Source of the DNA: Pocillopora verrucosa
Lineage: Eukaryota > Cnidaria > Anthozoa > Scleractinia > Pocilloporidae
Direction: 5' to 3'
Assembly (NCBI RefSeq): GCF_036669915.1
Contig: NC_089312.1
Coordinates: 18,172,317-18,236,316, forward strand
DNA length: 64,000 nt
The notes below the pieces were generated by a model, which worked only from the letters and a program-made list of their open reading frames with translations, had not been told where the DNA came from and ran no database searches. Every line of letters starts with the position of its first letter. Within the stretch, counting starts at the first letter, position 1. The position numbers were made by a program, and so were the translations under genes. Shown one piece after another: positions 4,199-62,300 of the stretch.

Positions 4199-6779
4199 AT
4201 GAGTAATGAACAGACTGTCATTGTGAGAAATTCCGCACAGTCACTTGGCGCGCATGAAGAGAATTTTGCCACCGAGAGAAGGACAACCGATCGTCAGGCC
4301 CATATTGGATCTGTGATATCCATCAGTGGAGAGCCAAGCACACCGTAAGTTTTGTTTTAAATTCTCTTCCGATTCCTCTATACAGCCGTCAGTTAGAATA
4401 AAATCTTGATTTGTTAGTTATTGAAAACGAAAGAGAAATCTGTTCACATTGTTCATGAAGGTTCTTTAAGGGGTTAACTAACCGTCATCTCTAAAACGGC
4501 AAAAAAAAAAACGTTTGGCCATTAGACGTAAAAATTGGTAAATTTAACTGTTACTTATAAAAAAAATTCAACGGTCAACGTTCTTCTTTTAATTGCGATA
4601 GGGAGAAATTACCTGTCTGCCGTAAATGGCCAAAATTTCAATTCTATGACGTAAGAGCCATCGTCCCATTGAGACCCCCTGTTCCTGTTACAGGATCAAC
4701 TCAAGAACTGAAGGAAAAAAATTCGGTATTCCCTCGTATTATTTGATATTTTAAAGAAGATTGTAGAAAATCGTTGGGTTGAATAATTTATCTTACGAAA
4801 TTCAAGTATTTGGTCAAGAACATACAGCTCTTGCTGCTGATGCTGTTGCCGTAATGGCGGTATCATTTTTATCGTTGTTGTTGTTGTTTTATTTTTAACC
4901 TTCGACAAAAGAAAAAGAGAAAAAGAAAATGTTAGGAAAGAAACAGAAACGCACTTTCGTTTGAAATACAACATGCCTGCTAGTGCTTAACTGTTGTACG
5001 CAACAACAAAAAATGAAAGCCTTTCTGATCCTCTCAAGCTTTTCGTCACCGATTCTTGTGCTGTAATTTCATTCAGCATTGCCCTGCTCGAACAAACTTT
5101 ACCTCAGAGCCTGTCTGGTTACTATTGTAGTCGCAAATTCGTAATAGATTTATAGATTTATTGATATAAGTATTTAAAAAAACAGCTGATGATAGAAACA
5201 ACGTCACTAATAAGTCAGTTTACCTCAAATCGATTTCAGTAATTATCTGATTAACGCCTCCAGGTAAATTAAGTTGCATAATATTTCCTGATGTTTTTGT
5301 TTTTTGCATGATGTGGTTTTTCAGATACTAAAAAAAAATTTTCTCTATGCTCAAAAAATAATTTTGGGTAATTTTCATGTTCTACTCAATTATTATCATT
5401 TAGACTACGTGCAGTCCCTACTTTGTTGCTCCGTCTGACGTGTAATTCAAAACGAAATGCAGAAAAACATTTTATTAGCGCACCTAAAAAGAGCTATCTA
5501 AAGAGAAATTTTTAGGAACAATTGGTTTTTGAACAATTTCAACCAGTCATAGGGGAAATTGGGGAACTTCGATTTATGTGGTAGTTCACGGTAAACAGAA
5601 AATAAAGGAATAAAAAAACAAAATCTGGAACTGAATCAATTGATGTCCACTGAAGCGAAGTAACGAGTGGTTTTTATTTGTAATGAGCCTTGTTGCGGAT
5701 GACGATGACGGTGCCTATATGATATAATAAATCAATTAAAAAACCTCAGTGAACTAAGCTTAAGCAATATTTTCCAAAGGAGTTTGGTAGACATGATGAT
5801 TATGAATGATTAAATTTTTAAATGAGTGTCGAGCGTCAATGACTTCGCTTGGTGAGTTCTTAATGGCTCCTCGCGATATTTTTCTTTCTTGAGGCTGGCT
5901 GTTGTGATATCTTTGGGTTTGGTTATACGACACTCCGGATCGAAAAGTGCTCTGTGTACCTGTGCTCTGTGTGATTATCATGATCTAATAGCCACAGTGT
6001 TGAAAGTATCTCCTTACGCCCCCGCTGAAGTAACTTTGCTTTGTTCCTTTTTCAGTTTGTCCCTGATGCATCATCGTTCTGCAATGGAGAGATCTGCGTT
6101 CCATCCTGTTCATCATTTCCCCCCAGGCTTTCTCCCTTTCAATCACGGACCCAGCTTGTTCCCTTCCAGTTCCCTGACCTCCCCATACCTTCCCGGACCA
6201 TCACACGTGGGCATACCTACTTTCGGATCAGCACCAGTTCTGTGCGGTGGCAGTGTTCCATTTCTACGATCATACCAGCCCTACATGCACAAGTTCTTAA
6301 ACCCAGCAGTTATTGGTTCTTCCAGAGTGTCTCCCAGAGAGCACTCCAGTGATGATGGCCCAAAGAAATGCCCCGTATGCGGGAAATCTTATGCACGATT
6401 GTCTACCTTGAGACTGCATTTGCGCACACATAGTGGAGAGAAGCCATACCAGTGCCTGGTTTGTTTAAAGTCCTTCTCTCAAGCCGCCAATCTAACGGCG
6501 CATTTCCGCATTCACTCCGGTGAAAAACCATTCAAGTGTCACATCTGCAACCGTCAGTTCTCGCAGTCTTCGTCTGTGACTACGCACATGCGCACTCACA
6601 ATGGAGAACGACCCTATCGATGTCGTGTGTGCACAAAGGCGTTCGCGGATAGTTCCACGCTCACTAAACACATGCGCACTCACACCGGTGAGAAACCTTA
6701 CCAGTGCGATGTTTGTTACCAAAGGTTTTCCCAGTCGGGGAATCTTAATCGCCACAAGCGAATACACAACGACGCATAA
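4199..6779 (+). CDS. Glass-family C2H2 zinc-finger transcription factor
   Basis: Coding exons are 4199-4344 and 6056-6779, joined in phase 2, giving 289 residues. The second exon has its acceptor after TTCAG at 6055, and translation would continue upstream of it only by reading intron. Residues 154-286 form five tandem C2H2 fingers with TGEKP-type linkers. Their helices carry [52 protein letters not shown] and [13 protein letters not shown]. This finger order and wording matches, from memory, the five fingers of Drosophila Glass, a DNA-binding regulator of photoreceptor differentiation. The N-terminal half is rich in Ser, Pro and Phe, with no other domain seen, and is much shorter than in the fly. 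Poly(A) signals AATAAA lie at 7042 and 7148. The first coding exon is less certain than the finger exon: its frame is open from the ATG and its phase fits. Other Kruppel-type factors are possible but fit the helices less well. Confidence 0.85.
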
Positions 6780-7899: not shown

Positions 7900-10800
7900 A
7901 TGGAGGTCTATGTTTCTGGTTGTGTGTTCTCATCGCTGGTCTACGAACTAGAGAATAGCATAGGAGATGTCGTGAGTGCAGTAATGTTGATTTGCGAAAT
8001 AATTTTGAGCTGCAGTTTATGTTTTTTTTAATCCTATCTTGCTAGGAGGGGCTCTTATTGGGCCAAATTACAAGCCGTATCACCAACACAATCACAGATT
8101 CACAATCCGAAAACTTGACACACGAGCGAGTTGCAAGTAAGTTCCGCATTTGTTTGCATTATCTACCGTTCTTTTCCTCCAGGATAATTGTTTGTGTTAA
8201 TAACTCTTTTAATATACTCCACTTACAGCGATTCAAGGGTTTGTTCCTTTTGGCAAAGTTCACAGGTAAGTAGTTAGATTACGATCAGGAATTTAGCGGA
8301 AGTGACTGACTATTGACAGAGGTGGTAATTTTGCAATTATGCGTATATTAAATTCATACGAACAAGGCTACACTTGCCACATGCTTTGCTAACTTTAAGG
8401 GTATTATGTAGTTTAATAACAAACAAGGACGTCTCATCGCTGGGATTTTAACTTAATTAACACAACGAAAATAAAGTTGGTAATACAACTTTTCAAATCA
8501 TACCTGCATGATAAGGAAAGGGAGTTTCTAAAACTGACGTCAGGGGCTAAAGCTAGAAACGTCAGTTTTAAAACTCTTTGCAGTGGCCAATTTATATTAT
8601 CAACTCATTTGGTAAACCAAAAAAATTTTGCAATACCCCACTGATGCAGCTCTACAGTTTATTTAGAAACTTACCCCCTTATTGATCAGGAGAGTTACTG
8701 TTACTAATAAATTTAGAATGACCAAATGATTTCAAATAAATTAGATTGATAACACTTATACTTGCCCACTTCAGGCCTTGGAAGTTTACTTATGTTAAAA
8801 AGTATATATAGAATGAGTGGAAAAAGCTCTAACCTCCTCACCTGCAGAAAAAATAAATAGTTGAATGCATTTGAAATTGACTTTTTTTGGCATGGTATTT
8901 GAAAGTAAAATGTCAAGCTAATCTATCTTGTTATTTCTCAAAAAAAAAACTGCAAAACTTAGGAATTAAATGCTTACCAACCATGTAACTATCTGGTCAC
9001 ATGCCTGAAAATTTTCCTGAACTAAAAGAAATTGAAAAAAGGAATGAGTTATATCCCTGGGCCCAGTTTTTCAGCCAATTAGTGCTAGCCCAGGGTTCAA
9101 CTTTAATCGGGGTTTCTATATTTCTCTGTTTAAAAGCCCTTTTGGAATAATTCTCCCAATTCTTTTTAGAGCATTCAATCATCAAATTGTACTCAAATGG
9201 ACTTAACCTGAATATTCTTTTAAAGCTTTTGGATCTGAAATAAAATTTCACACTAACCCTGGGTTATCTAAACCCAGCTTTAAGAAACCTGGCCCTGGTC
9301 CCTCAATTCAAGCTATGGCCATGTAATGATTAATGATCTTAGTAACAATATGACCTTTATTTATTTTTACAAACAGTTTTTACACCAATAGTGGGCACAT
9401 ATTAGAGGAAACTATTTCAAAGGAACTTAATGATAATGAAAAGAGTGAAGTAAGTATGATAAAATAATTATGATGATAAAGAACATGTATTCACCCCAAA
9501 TATATAGTGGGTTCACTATTATTATTATATTTTACTTCCAACTTTGCATTTCTAGTGTTCTGATTGGTTCACTCAACACCAGTCATCAGCTCATATCCTG
9601 AGTCACCTTAAATGGAAATGCATTTTGCCAAATATTGTGGAGCTGAAAAAAGGCTCCGAATATCCAAACATTCATGATGTAATGAAATTTAATTAACTAA
9701 TCATTCTATGCATGCTTGCTGGATATGAGATTAGTTATAGCCAACTTAATACTATGTGCCTGATTTGTTATTTACGATCTCATATTCCCCAAGCCTGCTT
9801 ATGGAATAATTGTTAATTGTTATTAATAATTTAGCTTCTCACTTTGTGGTGATATGATTTCTTTCTACCACCTTAATGGCTCCAAAACTACTGGTAATCA
9901 GACTATAGTTTGTCATAACCCTTTCACTCTAGAGATCTCTTTAGTACAAGTAATTCTCCTTACCATATGTAACACATTGCTTACAATTTTAGTTCTGAGA
10001 ATGTAGTGTTAGATCAAATGGCAACCCTCTTATTGATATTGTGTTTATTCTCACCATTTGCCTTCTTGATTTGGTATTGACATTGTAAAGAGAAAATATG
10101 TCTTGGTCACTCATGGGAGTTAAAGGGTTAAAGGCAGGATAACTCGCATTGATACTTTTTGTTGTTATTTGCCATTGCAGAAAGTCATTGGTTGGTTTTC
10201 ATTTCGTCGAAATACTCAAGGACAGGTGTCTATGAGGGAAAGATTTATCCATCACAATCTCATTGCAAAGCTCAACTATACCCCTTCCAAAGGTGTGGAT
10301 AAAAATGCACTACATGTATGATGAAATTTTCCATCCTTTTGATTGGAAAAAAAAATCCTTTTGACTTTGCATTTTTCTGGTTAAATCTAGTTGTATCACA
10401 CTTTTTAGTGATACCCTGGTTTTATAATTTCCCTGCTCTAATGCTCCATCCATTTACATGTTTTGAAGAATTTGCTGACTTCTTGAAGGATATGGCAACA
10501 ACTTGATCTTGTATGACTTGCAAATGTTTATATTAACTACTTGTGTCTTTCATGGGAGTAGGGCAGAAACATGAAGGTTATCAAGTTTTCTCATAATATT
10601 ATGGTGGAATCTGTTCTTTTGTGGAAGTAGTCAAAGCCCTTTATGGTACCTGAGCAGTGTACACAAGACATTAAAAAAAAGGGACAAATATAATTGAGTA
10701 ATTACTGTGTTGTGATTTAAACATATTTTAGGTAAACCAGTTTCAAATCATAATGTTTTAACAATGAAAAGCACAAATTGATTTGGGTTGAAATCATTTT

Positions 10801-17269: not shown

Positions 17270-19262
17270 CTAGAATAACTGTGGGTCCTCATGGAAGTCA
17301 AGGTACTTCATGGTAACAGGCATGAAACCTGAAAACAATCAAACAGAGAAATAAGGAATTGCTCAAAGTGGAGCAAAAAGTTCTAAACAAGCAGTCACAG
17401 GTAACCCTTTAATGCCCAAGAGTGATGAGCATCTAATTTCTCCCAACAGTATCACTCCTGAATAAAACATTAAGGTCATGAGATTAAAAGAAATGATCAT
17501 TAATTATCCTTGAAAGTACCATAAGAAACATGTAGAGAACAGTATGGAGTATTTTCTAACTGATGTTGGTGCATTAAAGGTTAAAATAAGGGACTCACTC
17601 CTTACCCATGGCTCTAGCTCTTCTAATGTTTTTTCCAATTTCTTTTTGTTTTTTATGACACAAACCTTCCAAGACAAGAATTTTGCAGTTATTAAAATGG
17701 TATACAACACTACTAAGCAAACTATGATTAGAAAAATAGCTCTGTCTAGAGCTACAAAAATAGTTAATTTTGTAGGTGATACACAAACTAACCTGTAAGA
17801 GTGCGTCCATAAATTCTACCAGTATGAGGTGAAACAAACTGGGACAGTAAACGGACATTCTGTAGGTACACAAGGATAAATTATAAATACAAGAATATAA
17901 CAAATACCTTACTATTCACACATGCACTTCACAAGCTCGACTGCCATTTGTGACCAAAATGACAATTTATACTTTTAACTTTAGCCTCTTACAGACCATG
18001 TAATGGTTATTTAATAACTTACTTTGTAGTCAATTTCCACATCTCCCCTCATTGGACAAAGTAAACAGCCAGTTGGCCTGTCTTCTTCATCTAACCTCTG
18101 ATCAAAATAAAGAGGAACAATTGAAAAAAAATGGAGTTTACATCTGTGGGATTGTTATCACATCACACTTAAATCTATTCAACTGTTCTGATTCAATATT
18201 ACTACCTAAGTACTCAATTAATTATATTTAATATCTTATAGCACAGTAAGAGGGCAATTGACAATCTATATTTCCAATATTTAAATTAGTTTTACTTTTT
18301 TTCCTTCTTGTTTTCATTTGTATTTTGTTATAAAAGATAATTCATTTCATCACTCATGTTCAAGATCACATTAAAATATTTTATCACCTATGAAGTTCTG
18401 TGCAGCTTTGGTTGATTGTCAAATAATATTGTAAGTTTGTAGAGGTTGGTAAGGCAAATTAGCTCATTCTCAAAATCTGCTGTTTTTAGTGTCATCCCCT
18501 TCTTGAAGCAAATAGCAATTGGTGCCAACAAACGACTTATGCATGTGAGATCAGCTGTATCAAACTTGCACTGTGGTTTACCCAACTTCTTAACTTATCT
18601 TTTAGTTGACAACCACCAATTTGTAAGCAAGTCATCAACTACTTCACACTGGTCGTAATTTGTAAGTTTTAAAACAATCATTCCAGGAGAAACAGTTGTC
18701 AGTGGACTGGTTTCCTTGTGAGCCAGACATAAAATTAAAGGTTTCCTCAAACTATCTACTAAGAACAGAAGTGGCTTATTCTATTTTGCGAAACGAAACG
18801 AAAATAAACCAGGCGAGATGTAACAAAACTAAGGAATAATGCGGTATACTATCAACAGAAGTGCAACTGAAAAAATTCCATGCTTGTCCTGTCATACACA
18901 TACCTCTAGTTTCGCCTGTAACTGGTTCAATTTAAACCGGCGAAGCATCCTTTTTCTCCGGGTGTTGTGATACTGTTTGCTATCTGCAATGAAAAACCAT
19001 TTTCAGCTAATATGATTCGATGAATCAAAGAGACATAACTAAGTGGCCTTATATTTAAGAGTTAAGCGTTAGCTACAATGCATCACTTGAAAATGAAAAT
19101 AAGAACGCATTCATCACGTTTACCTGACGTGCTTACGTGGAAACTGTGGCTTAAGACGGCTGTAAACGAACGCAGAGGGGCTAAAAAGTTATTTGTGTTT
19201 TTCAGTGCTAGCGAAATCAGTGGAGATCCACAGAACACTCTCGGTACCCTAATGGCCGCCAT
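17270..19262 (-). CDS. MRPS18C: Mitochondrial small-subunit ribosomal protein bS18m (S18C type)
   Basis: Six exons on the minus strand join in phase: 19262-19124, 18983-18904, 18097-18023, 17859-17793, 17665-17606 and 17328-17270, giving 159 residues. The start is a basic, acid-free presequence-like stretch (MAAIRVPRVF) suited to mitochondrial import. The S18 core reads CLLC...DYKN, then LLSQFVSPHTGRIYGR, TGLCHKKQKEIGKNIRRAR and GFMPVT, which matches the vertebrate S18C order (CxxC, VDYKNV, LLSQFVSP, TGLC, MGFMPV). It should act in the small subunit of the mitochondrial ribosome. The exon 1 donor was set by phase: the upstream GTAAGC would put a stop in exon 2, while the downstream GTAAAC keeps the frame. 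It is divergently paired with ES1. Confidence 0.92.
17402..17585. repeat. Interspersed repeat family A copy
   Basis: It runs from ACCCTTTAATGCCCAAGAG through GAGCATCTAATTTCTCC and GTAGAGAACAGTATGGAG to TTAAAGGTTA. It is close to full length and sits in the last intron of MRPS18C. Confidence 0.65.
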
Positions 19263-19373: not shown

Positions 19374-22300
19374 ATGGCTGCATATGGTCTATCTGCGATG
19401 AGATCTTTAGCAAGATGTCGATCTTTTCAAGCGTATTGTGCATTTTCCACGGGTTCAACGTCTCGTGCGTCAGTTGCTGTGGTTAGTACAATGAATTTTG
19501 AATTTTGAAAGAATCATAAACAGCGTGAATTAAGTGGACCTCAAAGAAAACACGAAAATCAATCATTTTGTGCAATTTTTTTTATCTCTTAAAAAATAGT
19601 ATATGTATATAAAATATCGTTGGACCAATAGTAAAAACTTAATTATAATACTCAGTCAACTGTGAGGTATTTATCGTTTTTGATTGGCATTATCAACTTA
19701 TTTTCGCTATGTTTATTATTGTTGCGTCTTTACTGATCAGTGATTTCATTGGTTGATATAACTGTACCTATATATCATATAGTGAATAAATTGCACACCT
19801 TTTTTCTTTCTTTTTCAAAGGTTCCATTTCTATCAAAGATAAATGCTTTCACAATAAAGTTAACCAAATAGATTCCTTGTGCTTTCCATCTGTTTTGCAA
19901 ATTGATTTCGGGTTACCATGCATAATGTCTGCTCAGTTTTAGATCTGTGACATACTCAGCTGGATCTTGTGTGCTACATTTATTTTCTTACCACAACTTG
20001 GATTCTATTTGTTTTTTATGATAAAAATAAAAATGTTGATGGTGAGGCATCTGTGCATATGTACTCCACTAAATCATTAATAAGAACCAATAAAAATGTA
20101 TGCATAATTCAACTTATTATATATTCAGTTATAGATCACAGATGACAAACTCTTTTTCAAGAAAAAATTTACTGTTTCATGCATTTTATAGGTGCTATCT
20201 GGGAATGGAGTTTTTGATGGTGCAGAAGTTCATGAGGCTTCAGCGTAAGTCTTCTGCTATGTATTAGAGAATAATGAAGATTTTCCCTGAAGATCAATAA
20301 TCTGCATCAAAAGTAGCTGGCAAATCTCATTTGAACAGTTCTTTTTATCATTTATGTGTTGCATAACACCACTGTTGACTTATTGTCAATACCATGCCAT
20401 GAATCATTGAATAACACCACTGTTGTTATTATTAACACCATGCCATGAATCATTGATCTAAACCCTCTCTTATCCATTCAAGGTTGCCTGTATGTAACTT
20501 CTGTAAGAGTTCCTGGAATCACAATCCAATATTTTTGGGAGGGAGGGGATGAATAGGTTAACTTACTTGAGGGCAAAAGAGATAACATTAAAGTACTGGG
20601 GGGGGGGGGTCCAAAAGGTCAATGTGTCACCAATTTGTTGCCAATTGTAGATAATTTACGTATTAGACCATTTTTGAATATGAATAATATATATTAAATA
20701 TATAAAGCCAATCTATGCTGTAAACCACCGACCAGCTTACTGCGCAATTATAACCTGTACCATTTTCATGAAATCTAACCCATAGATTTGTACCATTTTG
20801 AAATCTCTTGAAAACCCTGGGTTGTTTAGTTGTCATAGTTATTATGTAACAATAAAGGTTAGGTGCAATATTGTCAGGGCATTTTTGGAATGGCTAAATT
20901 GGAGGTAAACTCTGTTGTTTCAATTCTGTCCTGTACTTGGTTTGGTGGTCTGGGTGGCCCCAGTTTTTGTAGTTGCACTGTTCCAGGTGATTTAATACAA
21001 TATTTCTCTCTCTTAACATAAGGGTACTGGTCCACCTGAGCCGAGCTGGGGCTGATGTGAGCATGTATGCACCAGATATTCCACAGATGCATGTATTGAA
21101 TCATGCTAAAGGAGATGTAATGGAGAATGAGACACGGTAACAGATTACTAACTTATCACATGATTGTGATAAGTGAAGAATATTGAATAAAGAAGGGAAG
21201 AGAAAATAAGTTGGAGAAATTGTTTCACAAATAAATTTTTCAAAAGGCATATGGTAACATATCAGTTCTTGAGATGGCTTTTGATAAATTTATTTTGACC
21301 GTTTGTATCAAATCTTAATATTTGCACCAGTTAGTTGATTCAAGTTGACATGTAGTTTCCCCAGCTTTTTGGCTTTTTGTTGTTAAAATTTTCTTGTTTG
21401 GACGTCTTTCTAAGAACAGTTAAATTTAACTAATGAAAACTCAGGATATTTCCTCAGTCTTGGTAGAATCAATGTATTATTCTAAATTATGGGTGATGTA
21501 AAGGAACCAGAAAAGGAATTAAGACTGAAAGTGCTTTGTATTGATCAGTTTCAGTAAGCATCACTTGTTAGCTTTTTATAAACCCCTTCAATCCCAAGAA
21601 CTTAATAGTAATTCTCCTTACTGTCTGCCATACAATTCTTATGATGTAAGTTTGGAGAATTTGGTATCGAATCAACTTATATTCCCCTAGTTGATATTTT
21701 TCTTTATTCCTATCACTTGTCTACTTGATATAGTATTGATACTGTAAGGGGAAATTGTGTCTTGATCATCAATGGGAATTAAAGGGTTAATAGCTTAATG
21801 ACAATTTTTGATTTCAGGAATGTTTTAGTTGAGTCTGCCAGAATAGCTAGAGGGAAGATCACTCCTCTTGCCAATCTCAATGCTGCTTCCCATGATGCTG
21901 TCATTTTTCCAGGAGGATTTGGAGCAGCAAAGAATTTGTAAGTCCAGAGACTGATGATTATAGATTTTTCATATTTTTCACTGCAACATCCGGAGGAAAA
22001 GATTCATGAGATGAATTCCATTTTTTATTTAAAACAAATATTCAAAGGTAATATTTTATTAACAAATCACCTAAGAAGCTCTGATTGTTAAATGAATTCT
22101 CCTTGTCAATACCAAAGGAAATGTCTAGTAAAGCATAAGGAGAGTATGGAGTTGTAAGCTAACTATTAGGGTGCTGAAGCTCCTAGGTGGGAAAGATGTT
22201 TTATAATAATTAACTTATATTAGTAGTAATGATAATTAATTTTTATTTTTGAACAAAACAGATAATATGCAGTGTTTGTATTTTTATCAGGAGTTCCTTT

Positions 22301-22723
22301 GCTGTGGATGGTGCAGGCTGCACAGTTAATGAAGAAGTTGCAAAATGTATCAATGATTTTCATGCTGCCAAAAAACCTATTGGGTGAGAGCACAACTGAA
22401 TTGTGTACATTATATATTTTTTTTCTATTCTGATCTCACATCAGTAGGAGAGGTCAGTTCTTGTGGCCTGATGGCTGTCTCAGATTTATGACATGTTATG
22501 CTCTAACTCTGTATAACAGGGTAAATTAGTATTATCAGCTGAGTTGATAATGTAAATTGGCCACCGTAAAGAGTCTAAAAGCTGACGTTTTGAGCATTAG
22601 CCCTTCGTCAATTGCTCTGGCAAAGGGCTTGAAACATCAGCTTTTAGACTCTTTATGGTGGCCAATTTACATTATCAACTCAGTTGATAATACTAATTTA
22701 CCCTGTTATACCCTCCCACCAAA

Positions 22724-22759
<36 letters not shown>

Positions 22760-25540
22760 ATCCAGCTCTGTATGCATAGCTTCCAACATGTGGCTGGATC
22801 AGTAGCTCAGTTGGTAGTAACACCCAACTTGTATCAGGAAGGCACAGGTTCAAATCCTGTTGAGGTCAGAATTTTTTCAGGCTTCTTTTCTGCAGTTGCT
22901 TAAATTGCAGTTCACCTGTGACAATCATGGCTTAAGTTCATTTCAATCTGCAAGTCAATGACATTTATTTCATTTTAAATTTAATGTATATGTCTTATAT
23001 GATGTAATACTAAAGATTCTCTCCATTTGACCAAATGTCAGAAATGTTCTAAAACGAATAACCAAATAATTTTACAGCAAAAGAGCACCATTTCTAACCT
23101 AATTTTACCTTAAATAAAACCTGACTTGTTCCTGCATTCCTTAAGATCAATAGTACAATTTTGTGCCAAAGACGAAAAGCGACCAAAACAACAATTGCAT
23201 ATCAAAAATGTTGTCATCTTGTTTCATTTCAGTCTTTGTTGCATTTCTCCAGTGTTGGCAGCCAAGGTTAGTTTAGTCCCTAACACATTGTTATATTTAA
23301 AATTAATTTCAACAATTTTGCATTGCTATTTGTAGATTCTAATCTCCTTTTAGATAAAAAAAAATTGATCGAAGTAAGTTGGCAGGTTCGTTACATCTCT
23401 TAAAATTGATATCTGACATGGAATATTTATCAATGTCAGCTCATCCCGGGTGTTGAGATAACAGTAGGACAGGACAAGGACGATGGAGGCCGCTGGCCAT
23501 ATGCGGGTACTGCAGATGCTGTGCAACAGATGGGAGCAAAACACATAAACAAAAATGTCGACATATCCTTTTAAATTGTGTTGCTTTGGTTCTAATTCTG
23601 GGGTGATGCGTGTAACAATGCAACAAAAAGAGAATGTGCGAGTCAATAATGTCACAATCAAATCCCAAACGGTGTGCGAGACTCGGTTACTAACGTAATC
23701 ATCAGACACATGACAAAGTGTGCATGTCGCTCAGGTGACAACAAAACGTTAAGCAGAGAGTGCGAGTCATCAAACTAACAATCAGACAATCGCTCTGACG
23801 AAGGGCTAACACTCGAAAAGTCAGCTTTCAGACTCCTTACGGTGGCCAATTTACGTCATCAACTCAGTTGATAATACTAAATTACCTTGTTATACTCTCT
23901 CACCGACGCCGCGCCACAGTTTCTTTGGAAAGTTACTCCCTTTTAAAAATCAAACAGATAAGCTCAACCTAACTATCCGATAAAAAGACAGAATGCGCGA
24001 GTTACGCACCAAACAATCAAACAGAAAACAGAAAACGCGACTTACACTGTACTAACGTAACAATCAAACAGAAGCAGAGTGCACGAATTAACTACATAAC
24101 AATCACACAGAAGAAAGAATGTACTAGATACAAACGTAACAATAACACGGCAATCGAAGCAATTAATCAAAAAATAGTATGCGCGAGTCACTCACGTAAC
24201 AATCAAACAGGAAACAGAGTGCAGATTACTTACGAGACAATTACACAGAAACAGAATGCACGATTAACAAGCGTAACAATCACACATAAAACAGAATGTG
24301 CAAGTTACAAAAGTAACTATCACACGGTAAAGAGAATGCGCGAGTTACAGACGTAGAATGCGCAAGGAGCAAAGGTAACAATCACACAGAAACAGAATGT
24401 GCTAGTTACTAGCGTAATAATCACACAGAAAACAGAATGCACGTTACCAACGTAACAATCACACAAAAAACAGAATGCACGAGTTACCAATGTTACAATC
24501 ACACAGAAAACAGAGTGTGCTAGTTACTAGAGTAATAATCACACAGAAAACAGAATGTGCTAGTTACCAGCGCAACAATTACACAGAAAACAGATTGCGC
24601 TATTTACAACGTAAAGGTAATGACCAACGTAACGATCGCACTGAAAAAAGATTTTGCGAGTTACCAACGTAGCAATCATATACAAAACAGATCGCGTAAG
24701 TTACAACGTAACAATCATACGCAAAACAGATTGCGCACGGAACCAACGTAACAATCTCACAGCAGTCGAAGCAATCAAACAAAAGTCACACGCGTACGTA
24801 ACAGTCAAACAGAAAACAGAATGCGCGAGTGACTATCACACAAGGAAGGGTGCGAGATTTGCCTATGTAACAATTTGTAACTCAAAACGGAATGTACCCG
24901 TCACTATCGTGGCAATCATAGAGAAAACAGAGGGCAACGTGCGCCAGCCATAAACTTTAAAATCAAACATCAGAACAGAGTCTAGGAGTAACTAACGTAA
25001 CTATGAAACACGGAACAGAGTGAGCGACTCAATGGAAGTCGGTGAATAACACCATAAACACTGTTTCAGTCTGCCATAATCACGATATCAGAAATGCCCT
25101 GTTTGATTTAAGAAATTTCCATATAAATCTTTCTACATAATAACGAGTGTTAACGTACGTGATTTTAATGAGGTTCTTATTTTGAAACAGTCTAGCTCTG
25201 TTCTTTACTAATCATTCTCAAGCAGAAAGGGTTTAAAAAAGTTAAGATAACGCGGCGAAAAAGGGATTATTATTTGTTCAGATTTAAGTAATTTAAAATA
25301 TTTGTAAGCTTACTTTACATAAACAATGGACCACAACAGTCATAAGGATGTTTAGATTCCTCATTTTTTGCTGCACCGAGATTGAAGGTGTTGGTGCTTT
25401 TCCTTAACTGCTTGCACGAAATTCATGTGGACCAACAGAACAAAGTTGTTACAACCCCAGCATTCATGTGTGAGACAAAAGTTCATGAGATACACGATGG
25501 TATCGGCAAGATGATAGAGGCGATCGTGAAGATGTTTTAA
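19374..25540 (+). CDS. GATD3: ES1 / GATD3-type mitochondrial GATase1-like protein
   Basis: Eight exons give 255 residues: 19374-19481, 20192-20244, 21023-21136, 21818-21937, 22291-22383, 23233-23266, 23440-23562 and 25418-25540. The N-terminus ([19 protein letters not shown]) looks like a mitochondrial presequence. The core follows the DJ-1/PfpI-like ES1 family: [59 protein letters not shown] with the nucleophile-elbow Cys at 165/166, [10 protein letters not shown], and [18 protein letters not shown]. Bacterial homologues (ElbB) and vertebrate ES1/GATD3 are known, and their exact reaction is unsettled. The last intron cannot be spliced by GT-AG but fits a U12 AT-AC intron exactly. A poly(A) signal lies at 25831. 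Confidence 0.93.
20363..20456. repeat. Two-copy tandem duplication
   Basis: Two adjacent units of about 47 bp (20363-20410 and 20411-20456) share ATAACACCACTGTTG and CCATGCCATGAATCATTGA. They lie in an ES1 intron. Confidence 0.8.
21585..21790. repeat. Interspersed repeat family B, copy 2
   Basis: It begins near ACCCCTTCAATCCCAAGA and includes GTAATTCTCCTTACTGTCTG, ACAATTCTTATGATGT and GATATAGTATTGATACTGTA. It ends GGGAATTAAAGGGTTAA. It is in an ES1 intron. Confidence 0.65.
22062..22178. repeat. Interspersed repeat family A, partial copy
   Basis: It has ATCACCTAAGAAGCTCTGA, TTGTTAAATGAATTCTCCTT and GAGAGTATGGAG. Only the right half is recognisable. Confidence 0.55.
22511..22759. repeat. Family P palindromic repeat, copy 3 (long hairpin)
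   Basis: The two arms are nearly perfect inverted repeats of about 80 bp: the left arm runs from GGGTAAATTAGTATTATCA to AAAAGCTGACGTTTTGAGC, and the right arm mirrors it. Both arms carry ATCAACTCAGTTGAT-like sub-palindromes. The right end runs through CAGCACCACAGTTTCTTT to CTTACCCCC. It is in an ES1 intron, and a SINE follows within 35 bp. Confidence 0.8.
22792..22985 (+). repeat. tRNA-derived SINE
   Basis: The head resembles a tRNA, with an A-box-like TAGCTCAGTTGGTAG at 22804-22818 and a B-box GGTTCAAATCC at 22848-22858. The body AATTTTTTCAGGCTTCTTTT, GCAGTTGCTTAAATTGCAG and TCAATCTGCAAGTCAATGAC is an unrelated tail. The anticodon arm is irregular and there is no clean acceptor stem, so it is not a working tRNA gene. 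Confidence 0.65.
23608..25030. repeat. Degenerate minisatellite array, unit about 40 bp
   Basis: There are a few dozen diverged units of the form GTAACAATCACACAGAAAAC, then AGAATGCGCGAGTTACCAAC. Unit length varies between about 35 and 50 bp. A family P copy interrupts it at 23788-23943. It fills most of the U12 intron of ES1. Short open frames inside it are repeat artefacts. Confidence 0.8.
23788..23943. repeat. Family P palindromic repeat, copy 4 (right half)
   Basis: It starts CTCTGACGAAGGGCTAACAC and carries GGTGGCCAATTTACGTCATC and AACTCAGTTGATAATAC. It ends CCACAGTTTCTTTGGAAAG. It lies within the minisatellite, so it inserted after or during array growth. Confidence 0.7.
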
Positions 25541-27803: not shown

Positions 27804-29054
27804 GTAAGTAATGCTGAGTTATATGGATCATATGAGGTTTTCATTGATACGAAAGACTATAACAGTGAATTATCCCGAAATGATCTGCGTGCGATCAGTG
27901 ATACACAACAACTTGAAGTGAGGACAGCATCGTTGTTTATAACAAGTTTCACCCAGAATCTTCTCTCATATTGAAACCAGTGTTTTGAAAAATTTGAGAA
28001 GAAAAGGTTTCATCTGAAAATAATTACCAATCTCTGCTCTTTCACAACTTTTTCTAACTACACCTCTCTTCGGACACATGTCTAAATGATTGGGACTGTT
28101 GTAAGGGCTAGAAAGTTTCTTTCATTTGCCAATCACATGATTAGCACATGCATTCGTCCTGTGGAGTATATTGCAGCGTAGTAATTGCTTATTGCGCAGA
28201 AAATGTTTTTTGTTTTTTAAATTTGTTCTTGCCTGTGAATGTTGTACATTTCTCCTCGCAAGGGATGTAATATGATAGACTAAGGAAGGATTTGTCAAGG
28301 ACACCCCTGCTCCTGATTGTCTATTTGGTCCTTTACGAATACTAATATTTCAGATGAAGCTGATTATGTGCAAGAAGACTTTGAACTTTCCGTCTGTCTT
28401 TTGTGCTTAAATAAGTTGGGCCCTGACATTTTGATTTTCAAGCTGTCATTTTTTTATTGCTATGAGATGAGAAAGTAACAATAAAACAGCTGAATAGATA
28501 GGAAAAAAGACTGTTACGTTAGATGTAAGCTGCATGACACTTGAGTGGGATTCCATTTGGAAATGGTGAAATAGGCAAGGGTCTATTAATGCTCTTGTTT
28601 TGCAACCAGGCACATCCATGTCACCTCCTCTCTTGATACAACTCAACCAATGCAACCTGATTGAAACATTATTTAACAAATAGATTCTATGTAACTGTGC
28701 ATTATTACATAATAGATCACAGATTAAGTAGTGTGTATCTCTGATGTCCTTACCGCATTTTTCATTTTCTATGATATACTATTGTACAGACCACTTGTAA
28801 CAGGGATGCTATTTGTTTTGTATAATGAAAGATTGAAATGTTGTTAATGGTGACTTATTAAATTGCATAAGCATCTCAGCTTATTATGTTATCGGTAGCG
28901 GAAGACAGTTTAAGCTGAGAGGTGTCTACACTACTCCCATATGAGGGAGAATAAATGACAATTACAAATAATTATATTGTTGGGTTATTTTTAGGAATAC
29001 TCAATTGCAATTCATGTTTTGTTGCAGTGTTGCAGACTTTCTTGTCACTTGGAG

Positions 29055-32000
29055 ATGAGATCCGCACAAGTCATTTTCACCCTATCCCTCCTCACCCTTG
29101 TGGCAAGTAAATATGATCCAACATGGGAATCACTAGACTCTCGTCCCCTTCCCCCTTGGTACGATGAGGCCAAGTTTGGTATATTCATGCACTGGGGAGT
29201 GTACTCAGTACCAAGTTTTGGAACAGAGTGGTTCTGGTACAGATGGAAACATGACCAGGATCCAAGTTTTGTGGAATTCATGAAGAATAACTATCCACCT
29301 GACTTTGAGTATCAAGACTTTGCCCCAATGTTTCATGCAGAATTCTTTGATCCAGACTCTTGGGCAGATCTTTTAACAAAGTCTGGTGCAAGGTGGGAAT
29401 GGACAATTCATGATTTGTTTTATACTTTTAACTACTAAGAGCGACTAGCATGACTACTTCCTCCTAAGATTACAAAACTCCCTTTAGTCACACAGAGTAT
29501 GTGTCAACTGTCAACTATTTATCATCATATTGTAGATTAAAAAAACCATCCAACTTCACACTGTCTTTTGTCTCTGAGAACCATGATTATACCACTAGAA
29601 GTACATCTTGCAGCTCTTAAACCCTAGCAACTTCAGAGTAAAAATTAGGAGATTCTGTCCAACAGTTATTGGATGCTATTTTAAATGACATTCATATATA
29701 TATATATATGTATATACAAGTTAAAGAATTAAAGAGGACTCATCGATTCTCTGTGACTCTGAGTTTTGCACCTGTCTGATGAGTGCTTAGGTACGAAACT
29801 CAGTCACAGAGAATTGATGTGTCCTCTTTAATTCTTACCCCCACATTTATATATATATGAGAGAAGCCTATTAGCAAACTATTTAAGAGAGCACTTTTCT
29901 TGTTTTATCTCAGCATTGATCAGTGTATTCTTTTGACTATGTACTATTTAAATATCTGTTTTTTTAAGCTGTGATTCTTCTTTCCCTCTCATTTCTGCTT
30001 GTGTGTTACTGTGTGAAAAATTCAATTTAAAGTAAAGGGCATCTAATTTGCTTGTTACATTATACCTTTCTCCATTTTCTCTCTCCTTTATAATTTTTCA
30101 AAAGGTTGTCTATTGTTGAAATGGAGGAAACAAAAAATACAAAAATACAAATACAAAAAGAATCATACATCAAGGTCACAAAAGAAAAGATCACAAAGCC
30201 CACTATGTATTTGCATATAACTCAGTTTCTACATAGAGTGATATGCTTGTGCTCAATGCCCACTGTGCTGTCCTGCAAATGATGTGTTTTTCAGCCATAG
30301 TTGTATCTGTTCTCATTTGTGAAAAATGGCTGATAGCTTCCCCAAGCTGGCAGAAGGTGATTTCTCTTAACCCTTTACACCTTAACATCAGTATGCATAT
30401 TCTCCATACTGTTCTTTATACATTTCCTAAAATGCTGACAAGGAGAATTTGTGTAACAATCATCATGACTTTAACATGTGGTTCGCAGGTGATAATGTGA
30501 GGAGAAATTAGATTCTAGTCACTCTCAGGGATCAAAGGGTTCATGAAAAGTTATGAAAAAAGTGGAGTGTAACACTTATAGTTGAAATATAAAACAATTA
30601 TCTAAATTGGGTTTTTTTAAATATCATCATTATCCTTCAATGTCTGCCTGATCAATTGTTTGTCTCAGTGGTCAGTTTGGTAAATAAAGAGAGTACATTA
30701 TTTTGTTCAACCTTTTCCTCAGATATGTAGTCCTGACCAGTAAACATCATGAAGGTTGGACAAACTGGAGATCAAATGTATCATGGAACTGGAACTCTGT
30801 TGACAATGGTCCACATAGGGATCTTGTGGGTAGGGAAAATTTAAAGGCTAAATATGTGCGTGTGTGTGGAGGTAAAGATTATTAGAACTCCTCTTTATTT
30901 TTCATTTTCAGGGGAACTGGCAACAGCCATAAGAAATAGAACAGACATCACATTTGGATTGTATCATTCACTCTTTGAATGGTTCAATCCTCTCTATTTG
31001 AAGGATCGTGCCAACCACTTTGAGACACAGGATTATGTAGAGGTATATTGATACATGATCCTTTTTGTCCTGCTGTCTCTTACATTTGAATACCCAATAT
31101 GTTTTTACATCAAGTCATTCTGGTCAACTAGCCAACCAGGTTTTAATGGAATTCACTCAGATAAACAAATCTGTAGTTGATTTAAAAACAAAAATCCTTT
31201 ACCAACAACTCTGTGGAAAATCTTGCCAACTTAAGCATGAGTGTAAGCAAGAACTACACAACAAAGAATCAAAACATAAAATTCAGTTCATATTACAAGA
31301 CGGTTATCAAATGTACCAGTAATACTAGAACGTTGAAGAAGAGCCAGCTAGGAAGGCAAAAAAAAAAGCAAGAATGAAGGGCAAAGTATAATGACATGTA
31401 AATTGCCTTATGCAACACATTTAAGTAAGTCTGATGATAATATAGTAAATAACTTCTTGTTAATGCATTAACAAGAAGTTATTTACTATATGCACAACAA
31501 AGGGTAAATCTTTTCACAATAGTTTATAGATGAATTCCTTTCAGGCTCTTGAAACATCAATCAAGTTTATTCAAAAGTTGTAATAAATTCAGTGAAGAGG
31601 TTCACTTGTGGCAGTATTTCAAAAGAGTGAAATTGTTGAGTTTATGTAGAAGAAATTACCAGTACAATACTCGAGCTGTTGTAGAATCAATTATCTTATC
31701 CTGGTTTTTTTTTTCTTTTTTTTCAGCAAATTCTGATGCCAGAGTTGTATGACCTGATTAACACATATAAACCTGAATATTTATGGTCAGATGGTTCAAG
31801 TGGACCTGACACTTACTGGGAGAGCACAAAGTTTCTTGCCTGGCTTTATAATGAGAGGTAAAGATGATACTTTGAATTGACTTCAAAAGATACGATTCTA
31901 ATGTGATACTTTTAGTTATTAAGAAATCCTTTGTAAGCATCAGCCATTTATAATGAAACAGCAGTATGGTTGCTACAGTTCTGTAATTTGGTAGGGAAAG

Positions 32001-56100: not shown

Positions 56101-58392
56101 TTTGAATTATGGTTATTTTGTTGGAGACTGGAACTTAAAATTAATGTTAAGCGGTTGTGGTTGAGCTGGTGAGATCTTTTGTGGAAAACTTTCTGAGTGA
56201 TGACGGATAATTATCTTGAAGCGAAAACATTGAGCATAATAAGTTAAAAAATAATAACTAGGATACACTTCTGCATTTTATTTCTGAGTAAACTGTTGCC
56301 GTTTCCATGTGACTTTTATGAAATAAGTGCAATTTACCAAGATTAGTTTCACTGGCAAATATCCTAAACAGCCTCTGTGACAAACTCATAATCTCCTCCT
56401 CTGTTTATTCATATTATTTTTGAAAATGAACGTCATATTTTTTTGTTATCAAGTTTCACGAAAAATCATCTGCACACGCAAAGCCGCAACATTGTCAAAA
56501 GCTGAGATACTTCAGGGTCAAATATGCAATGAATTTCCATTGCAAATAAAAGGTCAAATCGGTGTCACACACCAAGCAGAACCCTTGAAATAATTGTCAA
56601 TAAAACCAAGAAAGATGAATCAAGATGATATAAACAGATAGAGAGTAGCTGATTTAGCAAAACCACGACACGGGAATCAAGACAGGGTTATCTCAATTTG
56701 ACTAAATCTGTAAACAAGAATAGGTGCACTGTTCAAACAAGATCGATGGCAGGATCATAGTCAAATAAATGGCTTCATTGGCTGTCGATGCTCTACATTT
56801 GTACAAAAGGATATTTAAACTTAACTCGTTTGTCCAAGGATGGAACGATTACTCGCTTTCTATAATCCCGGAAAAGATAAAACCAAAGTAAGATACGGTC
56901 GTTCCGCATTTCAAGAACCGGTGAGTATCGAGCGAATGTTAGATTGGTACTTCGAATTGCCCATAACAGAATGACAAACAAACAGTTTAAAGTTTTCCTT
57001 GGAACGTTAAACGGAAATAATTCTTTTAAAACACACTTTAAACACACTTTATTTTTCTTTTTCTTACAAAATAATTTAGATTATGTTGACCCGCAGATAG
57101 CAAATTTGCTATTCGAGGTGGGTCAATCATCAACAAACATTATTTACAATATATAAAGAAAATTAAAAACTAAATAGTTAGATATTGTTAAATTATAAAG
57201 AGAAGCATAACTGGTAAATACATCAATAGTTGTTCAATAAAGTATAGAAGCAAATAAATTAGTACTGAAAGCAATCGGATCAATTTGTTTTAATTATGCA
57301 GTCCTTAAGTTTAGAGGAGATCTTTTCAACATCAAGATATGAATCTTCATTATCTAGTATCTGAAATAAAGACGTTTTTATTTGTTTATTAAAGGAATGT
57401 TTTGATAACGTTTTGAATTCTTTCGGTATCTTATTCCAAATTTTGACACCAACACGCGAGAAAGCCTTTTTTTGTAGGTTAAGTCTAGAGTACTTTGTAC
57501 TAAAGAGCTGAGATTTGGATGATCGAGTATTGTAGGTATGAATATGAGATGTTTTAGTAAATAGTTTCAAAATATTAATGGGAGCCCTCTGGTTGTGCAC
57601 GTCAAACATAAGTTTACTTACGGCTTCATAATATAGGAACGTAACAGGCAGAATTTTTGCTTTGGCAAATAAAGGGATGGCATGCTCTCTTCGATCGGTG
57701 AAATAGATTAAGCGCAAAACTCGCTTTTGAAGAACTAAAATCTTGTTTAAATAAGCATTTGACGCATTGCCCCAGGCAAGGAGTCCATAAGTTATATAAA
57801 ACGGATAAGCAAACCGTTTAAACGTTTTTGCTTCAGTCTTAAACGGATGCAAACTTTCTTAAACGGATGAGCAAACCATTTCAACGCTTTCATGAACCGT
57901 TTAGACGGATTTAAACGGATAGCAAACGGTTTCGCAGTTTAAACGGGAAAGCGTTAGTGTCCGTTTTCCCATGGAGGGTCACAATTACAGACTACTTCAC
58001 TTACGCTGCCGTTTTTCCTGACCCGGTCATGGCTCTCGCTAAAATATCCTTGCCTTCCAAGGCCAAAGGTATGGCCTTCTCCTATAGAATAAGAGTCTAT
58101 TGTTAAGAGAATTGTCCCTGAAGAATAAAAGCAAAATGGAACAAGACAAAATGCCTGCTCGTTACTTATGAAGATTTTAAACATATTGTATACAAAAAGC
58201 ACTAACCTGGATCAGTGAAGGTTGTGACCAATTTAGCTTGGCAATCGCCTTATAAAACAAAACAGAAGAAACCGTAAGGATATAAATACAACTGGCTCCT
58301 TATAAAATCGCGAAAATATTTGTAACCTTGACCAATCGATCGTCTAAACCCATTTCATGAAAAGAGCTACTTTCTTCAACCTGATCCGCCAT
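44164..58392 (-). CDS. DDX56: DEAD-box RNA helicase DDX56 (nucleolar)
   Basis: Twenty-six minus-strand exons join with consistent phase to 554 residues (human about 547). The outer exons are 58392-58327 and 44190-44164. Exons between, lower coordinates first: 44869-44931, 45711-45808, 45887-45992, 46373-46431, 46607-46637, 46983-47044, 47183-47286, 47943-48009, 48729-48778, 49284-49302, 49734-49825, 50810-50881, 51040-51093, 51210-51260, 51715-51779, 52484-52522, 52961-53012, 53127-53224, 54329-54401, 55376-55446, 55658-55741, 55838-55880, 58005-58081 and 58207-58248. Helicase motifs are GSGKT (56-60), PTKELA, DEAD (166-169), SAT (197-199) and HRVGR (368-372). [17 protein letters not shown]-like and [15 protein letters not shown] segments identify the DDX56/Dbp9 branch. 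A basic C-terminus (KSSRKRRRP, about 503-511) fits nucleolar targeting. It should act in 60S ribosome assembly. Confidence 0.95.
44350..44525. repeat. Imperfect tandem duplication
   Basis: GACAAACCCATGACCTTTCG and GACAAACCTACTACCTTTCG head two units of about 110 bp. CGAATACTCTGCATCTTATC is repeated three times with variation. It is in the last DDX56 intron. Confidence 0.6.
45080..45285. repeat. Interspersed repeat family A copy (reverse), half of an inverted pair
   Basis: It runs from ACCCTTTACACCCTAACATC and CATATTCTCCATACTGTTCT to TCTTAGGGGCAAAAGGGTTA. The next copy, about 50 bp away, points the other way. It is in a DDX56 intron. Confidence 0.75.
45337..45538. repeat. Interspersed repeat family A copy (forward), half of an inverted pair
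   Basis: It runs from TCAACCCCCTATGAGTGACT through CATCTAGCTTCTCCTTATAA and GAACAGTATGGAGAATGTG to TTAGGTTGTAAAGGGCT. With the 45080 copy it can form a long intronic hairpin. Confidence 0.75.
48220..48650. repeat. Diverged interspersed repeats in a DDX56 intron
   Basis: GGGATGCTAGTCCACTG (about 48232) and GGGATGCCAGTCCAGAG (about 48529) are related boxes. Between them GGATAACGCTATCC, TGGATAAATCGCTATCC and AGCGGATA form repeated palindromic blocks. The boundaries are unclear. Confidence 0.4.
49284..49302 (-). other. 19-nt microexon of DDX56
   Basis: The exon, CAAATGTTAAGAAAAAGAA, lies between GAACAG and GTGAGT. Without it the flanking exons (49734-49825, phase 1 out; 48729-48778, phase 2 in) cannot join in frame. 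With it they give [20 protein letters not shown], a lysine-rich insert at the position where human DDX56 also has a charged insert. Confidence 0.8.
49303..49733 (-). other. U12-type GT-AG intron of DDX56
   Basis: The donor is GTATCCTTTTT, a full match to the U12 GT-type consensus GTATCCTTT. A branch-site-like TCCTTTGAC ends 19 nt before the AG acceptor. The intron is 431 bp, in phase 1, and is followed directly by the 19-nt microexon. Confidence 0.75.
50259..50468. repeat. Interspersed repeat family A copy, reverse orientation
   Basis: It starts GACCCCTCAGACCCAAACAC with CATATTCTCCACACATTTCG and ends CACTCTAGGGGTCAAAGG. It is in a DDX56 intron and is more diverged than the others. Confidence 0.6.
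51966..52410 (-). mobile_element. 5'-truncated LINE tail in DDX56 intron
   Basis: On the minus strand the first part translates to [20 protein letters not shown] then a stop, the usual C-terminal wording of CR1/L2-like reverse-transcriptase proteins. A long AT-rich 3'UTR ends in an ATT/TTA simple-repeat tail at 51966-51990. It is in sense orientation with DDX56 and has no intact reverse transcriptase. Confidence 0.55.
57048..57795 (-). mobile_element. 5'-truncated non-LTR retrotransposon (reverse-transcriptase C-terminal part)
   Basis: The minus-strand frame 57795-57280 reads [38 protein letters not shown] and [12 protein letters not shown]. This is the conserved end of CR1/L2/Jockey-like ORF2 proteins that follows the reverse-transcriptase domain. 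The catalytic FADD region is absent. The 3'UTR carries a hairpin at 57087-57125. It lies in the third DDX56 intron, same orientation. The 3' boundary is uncertain. Confidence 0.7.
57087..57125. repeat. Hairpin in the LINE 3'UTR
   Basis: TGACCC and GGGTCA enclose a second perfect stem, ATAGCAAATTTGCTAT. Such 3' hairpins are used for template recognition in some LINEs. Confidence 0.6.
57796..57955. repeat. Cluster of AAACGGAT / GCAAACCGTTT motifs
   Basis: AAACGGATAAGCAAACCGTT, AAACGGATGAGCAAACCATT and AAACGGATAGCAAACGGTTT alternate on both strands, with further AAACGG and CCGTTT blocks between. The cluster directly abuts the truncated LINE and ends about 50 bp from a DDX56 exon. Confidence 0.6.
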
Positions 58393-59362: not shown

Positions 59363-62300
59363 ATGACGGCAAATGGAAAAGTAAATAAGAACAAGGTGAT
59401 TCCGGTTCAACTCGCGACAGAGGAAGATGAAACTGTTGAGGAGAATAGAGGAGCGCAAGCTTGTTCGCCTGAGAACGCTGAAGAAAAGGAAAGCCCTAAC
59501 TTATACAAAAAAGTACGTATGGTTTCTCCCTTGAAATCAGCTGGGCAAGCTAAGTTAAACGTGTCAAAATGGCGAAAGTATGCCAGGAGACGAGCCGATA
59601 TAGCAGCTTGGCGTGAGCATCAAAAAGCGCGAATCGACTTTCCGACAATCCGCGAAAGCCAAAGACAGAATCATCAACGTATAAACGCGGCGCAGTTGAG
59701 TGATTTGGAAGAACTAGTGGAAATAACCTCCATCCACCAGGGGCATAGGAAAGATGGCGGGGTTACGGCTGTGAGCTCACCCAGCCGGGCTTTGTTATAT
59801 TATTTTGCCAAGCTGGCCGCGTCAACTCGTGAAGAAGAGGTAATCGATTTGGAATTTGTAGAGACGCTTATTCAGAATGGCGCTTCCGTGAACACGGCGG
59901 ATCGTCATGGACAGACACTTATGCACGAGGCAGCAAGGCAGTGGGATTTGTCCGTTGCTAAGTTACTACTTGAACGAGGTAAGGGAGAAATAACTTGAAG
60001 GGTTTTGAACTCAGTGCATAATAGTCTGGTGGACTAACGTCTAAATTTTTAAATTGCTTTTAATCGTTAAAAATACTCGTAAACATGGGGAGGCAGATAT
60101 GTACAAGTCATTATTGGTTTTGCAAATATAGTCACGTCAGTAATTTTTATCTCAGTACTGCAATCACTTGTGGCTTTGGTTGAGGTAGCATTTTTCTTCT
60201 AAGCGCTCTTTATTTCAGACGCATTTTAATTAATTTCTGAAAATTTTAGGAAAGATTCTTCAAAAAAGCTGTTCTTACGAATGCACGTAACTATACATCT
60301 TCAGAGGGCTTCTATGTTATAGCGCGAGGAACGCCAAATATTTCCTTATTTGCATGGAGACAAAGAAAACAGTATTCGTGATGTACAAAGCACTGAAAGG
60401 GTGGACAGGATTTTCCTTTCTTATCGTGATCTTATCATTTATTCTAAGTAAATTGGAATTAGTCAAATGATAAGCTAACATATGATAGGAAATGAAAATT
60501 ATTACCACCGACTGTTTCTCATAAGCGTTGAGCGGAAAGAAATGCATAAACACTGGTACATTGTGGCATCTCAAATGATCCGAAACTGCCAAAACAATTC
60601 TTGACCGACCAGTAACTTAGAAATCTACGCTCTTTTAAAATGGTGTCAGATTTTAACTTCGCAGAGAAAATTTGCAAATTGCGCAGTAGGAATTATATAG
60701 TTCTAAAATTATTAGAGGTTTAGAACTACTTTTTGGGAGCAGATGTTCGAATACAACTCATGAAAAAATTGACATGGAGCAGTTTTAAATGTCTTTATTG
60801 TTTTAATACACTCTAGCTCACTTTATGGACTCACTTTGCATTTAGGCACCAATTGACCGTCACTTGCTTTTTGGCGCGATTTTTGCCGCGCAATAATTCA
60901 TTTCTTTCTTTCAGTCTAATTCAAACCTATGCGTAGTCTGTAGTTTTACAAAACATTCTTACTCCAAACTTTCCAAAGTAAACATTTACCTAGAACAGGT
61001 ACGGTTTGCTCCGTTTTTATTGCTTTTAGAAATTTGAATTTGCGTTTATCTCTTTTTTTCCATTTTCCTGAAATATTAATTACAAAAAAAACAAATTGTA
61101 TAGGTAGCCAGTTAAATGGCAGCTTCTAATAGGGTAAATAGAAAAACAAATTAGCACTTTTAAAAGCGTTGAAAACATAATCTGCAGGTAATCGCAGATG
61201 TCTTCGTTCTCACCAAAAATTTCTCAAGGGAAGTAAAAACAACAACAAAATATTACTCATGAAAAACTCATACCCATACTAATGATGGAATAGGGAAATA
61301 TTTGCTATGTATAGGAATTCCCTTAAATTCTCTGAACATTTTCACACAAACAACGTTTTCGTTTCATCAGGTTTTAAAGCGTATTATTTCAATAGCGTCG
61401 TGTCTCTAACGTCAGCCCGATATCGTTTAAGTCTCTAGCAAAGAAAATGTTTCAGAGAGGGTTTTATGATATTTATATATCAATTCACTTTGCACCTTGA
61501 ACATCACTGGGTTGTTCACTATGGTTTTTGTTTATGGCAATAGTCATTTACGGCTTCCGTCATATTGCACATAATCTACACATAACCTTACTTCAAAGTG
61601 AGCCGAACGAGCTACTCTGAGCATATAGTAACGTCCTCGTATTAAAACGTGCATCACCCTATAAAAGTAATTATATCTAAGAATACTTCGGCTAAAATTG
61701 ATTCTAAGAGCTGTTGTTCGATGATGGACCATAGGTTTGTTGAACACAAGGTCAACTTAACAAAAGTTTATAGCTTTTCCTAAGGGCAAGGCACAGGTAA
61801 ACTTAAGCTCGTCAAGGGCTTAAAATATGCGGTAGGGAATAGACGAGTGCTTTCTTTAATAATTGAAGATTTCCGAGCGCGCAAAGAAACCGAAATGGTC
61901 ACCTCCTTGTGTCGAACATTCAAATAAAGGAAGGCGTCTATGGTACTCAATTAAATTAAAAAACACCGCATAACTCGGCATGCAATCTAATGTGATTATT
62001 TTTAGTTTCATATCAGCTTTTTTATCCATTTTCTACAAAGTTCAGTTCATAATGCAAATTTATTTTGTTGCTTGGACACATTTTTGACTTCTCGTGCGAC
62101 GCGCCAAAGTTTGAAGGTATTAAACCTAAGACATGTCTTTGCTGAACTCAGCAGTATTTCAGTGGTGGATATGGAGACTATAGATGACAAAATAGATGCC
62201 TGGTACGTTGGACCAATTTAAAATTGAGGGTTGAAAGCAATCTTTGTAATTGGTCAAGAAATTTCACACCACTCTCTCAACCAATAAGATTGACACCAAT

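Follow-up and report, generated by a model that had tools for sequence, protein, structure and literature searches.

Intron 7 of the coral ES1/GATD3 gene is, with a probability of about 95% judged from its sequence, a U12-dependent intron of the AT-AC subtype. It occupies positions 23563-25417 (+ strand, phase 0, 1855 nt) of the window, that is, of the whole 64-kb stretch of DNA that was analyzed (G000:C1:18172317-18236316, in an assembly of 353 Mb and 52 contigs). The original prediction had placed it at exactly these coordinates, with a length of 1.86 kb. Introns 1-6 of the same gene are of the GT-AG type, and intron 7 is AT-AC. In the proposed mechanism, U11 would bind ATATCCTTTT at 23563 and U12 would bind TTCCTTAAC at 25400 by base pairing, leaving the branch adenosine bulged. 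U6atac would then take the place of U11 at the 5′ splice site, and exon 7, ending with GAC, would be ligated to exon 8 to yield the in-frame sequence ...KNVD-EIHVDQ.... We infer that the ES1/GATD3 RNA is actually spliced at these AT-AC ends.

The ES1/GATD3 gene and its surroundings

The ES1/GATD3 gene (ElbB family) is intact in the window. It comprises 8 exons on the + strand and encodes a 255-aa product. Exon 1, with the start codon, is found at 19374-19481 and is followed by the donor GTTAGT. Then come exon 2 (20192-20244), exon 3 (21023-21136), exon 4 (21818-21937), exon 5 (22291-22383), the 34-nt exon 6 (23233-23266), exon 7 (23440-23562), which ends with ...KHINKNVD, and exon 8 (25418-25540), which runs from EIHVDQQNK to ...KMF and the stop codon; homology covers the last two without a gap. 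All the exons are open and together they give a full-length family match. The NCBIfam ElbB equivalog NF008747 matches residues 32-254 with 272.2 bits for a cut-off of 180, which supports the gene named in the original prediction, and four solved sequences match the protein, the best with 3e-56. The Pfam family DJ-1_PfpI stays below its cut-off (20.1 vs 26.6). From these sequence matches, the gene is identified as ES1/GATD3 (C21orf33), the homologue of bacterial ElbB. The residues before position 32 look like a possible mitochondrial targeting stretch; some tblastn matches of prokaryotic relatives reach as far N-terminal as residue 4. When the whole assembly was searched with the protein, the 7 matches obtained were all pieces of the ES1/GATD3 gene itself, so that no second copy, retrocopy or paralogue was found.

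A ribosomal protein S18 gene lies at about 17273-19262 on the - strand (PF01084, 75.7 bits; exons joined by eye) and probably encodes a mitochondrial ribosomal protein. The two genes are head to head, with start codons about 111 bp apart, and they perhaps have a promoter in common. Elsewhere in the window are a C2H2 zinc-finger open frame (5889-6779, +), an alpha-L-fucosidase stretch (29019-29438, +), an ankyrin-repeat open frame (59363-59998, +) and a 190-aa open frame with no Pfam match (57280-57852, -), which may be akin to the C-terminal portion of proteins from retrotransposons. No Rfam family reaches its gathering score within the 64 kb.

Splicing signals of intron 7

The last base of exon 7 is 23562 (GTC GAC, encoding V D) and the first codons of exon 8, GAA ATT, start at 25418. 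Between them, the U12-type AT-AC consensus announced by the original prediction is found at each of the expected elements. The 5′ splice site ATATCCTTTT (23563-23572, +) fits [A/G]TATCCTT and is complementary to the 5′ end of the U11 of this genome, CAAAAGGG. The branch site TTCCTTAAC (25400-25408, +), with the branch adenosine at 25407 (or 25406), fits TTCCTTRAY and would pair with GUAAGGAA of U12. The 3′ splice site AC is at 25416-25417 (+), and the intron thus ends as TTCCTTAAC-N7-AC. The pyrimidine tract is absent between the branch site and the 3′ end, the branch site being followed by TGCTTGCAC.

Branch site and spacing had both been said to agree with the consensus. The former is a perfect TTCCTTAAC close to the 3′ end, but the distance from the branch adenosine (25407) to the intron end is 10 nt, just under the 11-13 nt given as optimal in a review (PMC3584512), which counts slightly against the AT-AC reading. 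The phase also counts against it, since phase 0 is described as the least common one among minor introns (PMC10639083).

If exon 7 is read through, a stop follows DISF (ATA TCC TTT TAA); therefore the conserved C-terminus requires exon 8. The donor motif by itself is no proof, since [A/G]TATCCTT is common in the window, with 7 sites when both strands are counted. The 9-mer ATATCCTTT has one site on each strand of the window and the 9-mer TTCCTTAAC one on the + strand and none on the - strand, for an expectation of about 0.4-0.5 per strand in each case (first-order model). Under the same first-order model, with the junction fixed and 13 branch placements allowed, the chance of finding ATATCCTTT and TTCCTTAAC jointly at the homology-fixed junction is about 4e-11, a value calculated post hoc.

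The junction as seen from prokaryotic relatives

Prokaryotes are devoid of spliceosomal introns, so that prokaryotic relatives reveal the expected spliced protein. A contig scan with the single ES1/GATD3 protein as query found no relative; an alignment-based contig scan gave 571, of which the best 80 were compared. Their titles are bacterial, L066 being archaeal. In 80 of these 80, the predicted junction between an exon 7 ending with KNVD and an exon 8 starting with EIHVDQQNK lies, free of gaps, inside a single local-alignment block that covers no fewer than 10 residues upstream of it and no fewer than 16 downstream. The AT...AC termini are fixed by homology in all 80 (best 80 of 571). The D|E junction is likewise gap-free in both solved relatives for which alignments were shown, out of the four matches. 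One solved relative we take to be that of E. coli. At the junction, the solved ElbB chain reads MGAEHVPCPVD-DIVVDEDNKIVTTPAYM.

The original prediction also held that the reading frame is lost with every GT-AG alternative. This does not stand, as 34 GT/GC-AG pairs preserve it, with donors at 23455-23574 and acceptors at 23600-25474. Nine of the 34 were scored against the same relatives (best 80 of 571). The AT-AC form was top-scoring in 80/80, and none of the nine won in any of them. Over its closest scored rival (23557-25387; 9 of 34 pairs scored), the advantage is 18.2 points on average and at least 9 points among the best 80 of 571. The GT at 23557 is the only one within 35 nt upstream of the junction.

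Repeats in intron 7

Intron 7 is indeed packed with repeats, as had been noted. One is a dispersed repeat element (23787-23943, +), which is matched 5 more times across the window, at 305-598, 8534-8680 and 22511-22759; within 22511-22759, and again within 305-598, two copies form adjacent inverted arms. Arrays of a 40-bp minisatellite occupy 24050-24756 (+). This family is dispersed in the genome, with at least 70 matches including those of intron 7 itself, and its arrays are mostly found at 15.6, 17.56, 18.09 and 18.14 Mb of contig C1, as well as on contigs C2, C8 and C9. Both the minisatellite and the repeat element are dispersed, no special role is needed for either of them, and they are most likely passengers.

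The minor spliceosome in the same genome

Rfam models identify a U11 gene (91.9 bits, C1:25140865-25140992) and a U12 gene (103.3 bits, C6:432215-432364), both above the gathering score, a second U12-like match remaining at 40.2 bits, below the cut-off of 53. A U4atac gene (L100, C3:25822508-25822629) scores 55.3 bits, just above its gathering value of 53, and a full-length U6atac gene (RF00619; C9:10695164-10695288, - strand; L085 1501-1625) reaches 104.6 bits for a gathering value of 33. The four models had no matches in 14 prokaryotic control genomes. For CCDC84/CENATAC there are four matches on C6; three of them fall inside some 1.3 kb and the fourth lies about 7 kb off. According to PMC8280824, CENATAC promotes A-type (AT-AN) minor introns, and its depletion affected 92% of A-type vs 24% of G-type minor introns. 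The presence of these four RNA genes and of CCDC84/CENATAC indicates, at the level of gene content, that the host has a minor spliceosome. The predicted pairing energy with the intron 7 donor is -5.9 kcal/mol for the 5′ end of U11, CAAAAGGG, and that of GUAAGGAA of U12 with the branch site is -9.9 kcal/mol.

A genome-wide search for short U12-type introns, with the pattern TATCCTTT-N70-100-TTCCTTRAC, gave 8 matches vs 9 in the reversed control; there is no enrichment, and the pattern is without power. A or G precedes TATCC in 4 of the 8. At L103 (G000:C4:22203771-22203864), which belongs to these four, GTATCCTTTG ... TTCCTTGAC is seen, with an AG 11 bases further. Inspected by eye, L103 is a plausible candidate for a short GT-AG minor intron.

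An altered box in U6atac

Positions 11-16 of the sole U6atac found read AGCCGA, as opposed to AAAGGA in the Rfam consensus; the flanks are conserved and the consensus 5′ splice-site box is absent. Position 13 is C, position 14 is C and position 15 is G. When the box was left open and at most 2 mismatches were allowed, the search returned 1 site in the whole assembly and 0 in the control. The RNA can be paired with U4atac over about 15 consecutive bases, including one two-sided (compensatory) change, noted by eye, from C-G in the consensus to U-A here. The gene ends with TTTTT and a TATA-like TAATAAAAAG starts 33 bases upstream, so that it shows no sign of being a dead copy.

The CC5/6GG and GG14/15CC suppressor pairs show that, in mammalian cells, C5 and C6 of the donor are bound by G14 and G15 of U6atac through base pairing (PMC4980772). 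The predicted pairing of the coral U6atac with the intron 7 donor amounts to -3.0 vs -8.4 kcal/mol with the consensus box. The departure of the only U6atac found from the consensus, with this weaker predicted pairing, counts against the AT-AC reading. It may tentatively be imagined, at odds somewhat below even, that the minor spliceosome of this coral removes ordinary ATATCCTTT introns with a box-altered U6atac (AGCCGA for AAAGGA). If so, the AGCCGA box would cost the C6-G14 and U7-A13 pairs, C6-G14 belonging to the pairing important in mammalian cells, so that the 5′ splice site would be recognized mainly by U11 and proteins, or U6atac would be paired in another register. It is possible that the box is an assembly or allele artefact. 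It is also possible that it is a lineage-wide variant already in databases. No cnidarian U6atac sequence was found in the consulted portions of the literature on Nematostella and cnidarian minor splicing.

Alternative explanations

Several other readings of the junction may be envisaged. Use of a U2-type GT-AG junction, such as donor 23557 with acceptor 25387, would keep the frame, yet it is very improbable. With splice-site matrices, the donor AAT|GTCGAC scores -2.7 vs 4.0 to 8.1 for the six donors of the gene itself, and the acceptor scores -0.1 vs 2.3 to 8.7 for its own acceptors. Moreover, its alignment score is lower in each of the 80 relatives (best 80 of 571), by the average of 18.2 and the minimum of 9 given above. 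The AT-AC ends might instead be handled by the major spliceosome: in human cells, 85 major introns were counted in one study as belonging to the AT-AC subtype or to related ones (PMC8280824). This is just as improbable here, in view of the full ATATCCTTT donor and of the perfect TTCCTTAAC branch site, which lies 10 nt before the end of the intron and is not separated from it by a pyrimidine tract. Least probable of all is that ES1/GATD3 is a decayed copy or a misassembled locus, in which the match to the consensus would be meaningless. The richness of intron 7 in repeats might suggest it, but the eight exons are all open and match the family over its full length, and the genome search revealed no other copy. 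Removal of intron 7 by the minor spliceosome, at its AT-AC ends, is thus the preferred reading.

Comparison with known systems

AT-AC introns had been presented as rare even among U12-type introns. This was overstated, as they make up 26% of the U12-type introns in human and 22% in zebrafish according to Table 2 of PMC7367187. In Acropora corals, the average minor intron density is above that of most vertebrates (PMC10639083). Given this share and this density, an AT-AC intron is to be expected in a coral. As roughly one in four minor introns in human is AT-AC (PMC7367187), intron 7 is a neat but ordinary example of introns that are already well known. It adds one clean AT-AC case, and the ES1/GATD3 gene model would break in gene finders restricted to GT-AG. 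No report of a minor intron in C21orf33/GT335/GATD3A was found in the literature searched. GT335 may have been named among the early U12-type introns.

By itself, intron 7 is of modest interest and the U6atac box is the lead worth pursuing; it raises a testable question: how much pairing between U6atac and the 5′ splice site does minor splicing need? As compared with RF00619, the coral U6atac resembles the family by its full-length match and by the pairing with its own U4atac, and differs by its box, AGCCGA instead of AAAGGA. The coral protein matches the ES1/GATD3 (C21orf33)/ElbB family over its full length, from residue 32 to residue 254, and no difference was seen. The standard laboratory case of an AT-AC intron is intron F of P120/NOL1. 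Intron 7 resembles such U12-type AT-AC introns by its terminal dinucleotides, its 5′ splice site, its branch site, a short branch-to-end spacing and its position as one minor intron among major ones; nothing outstanding sets it apart, the intron being of phase 0 and rich in repeats.
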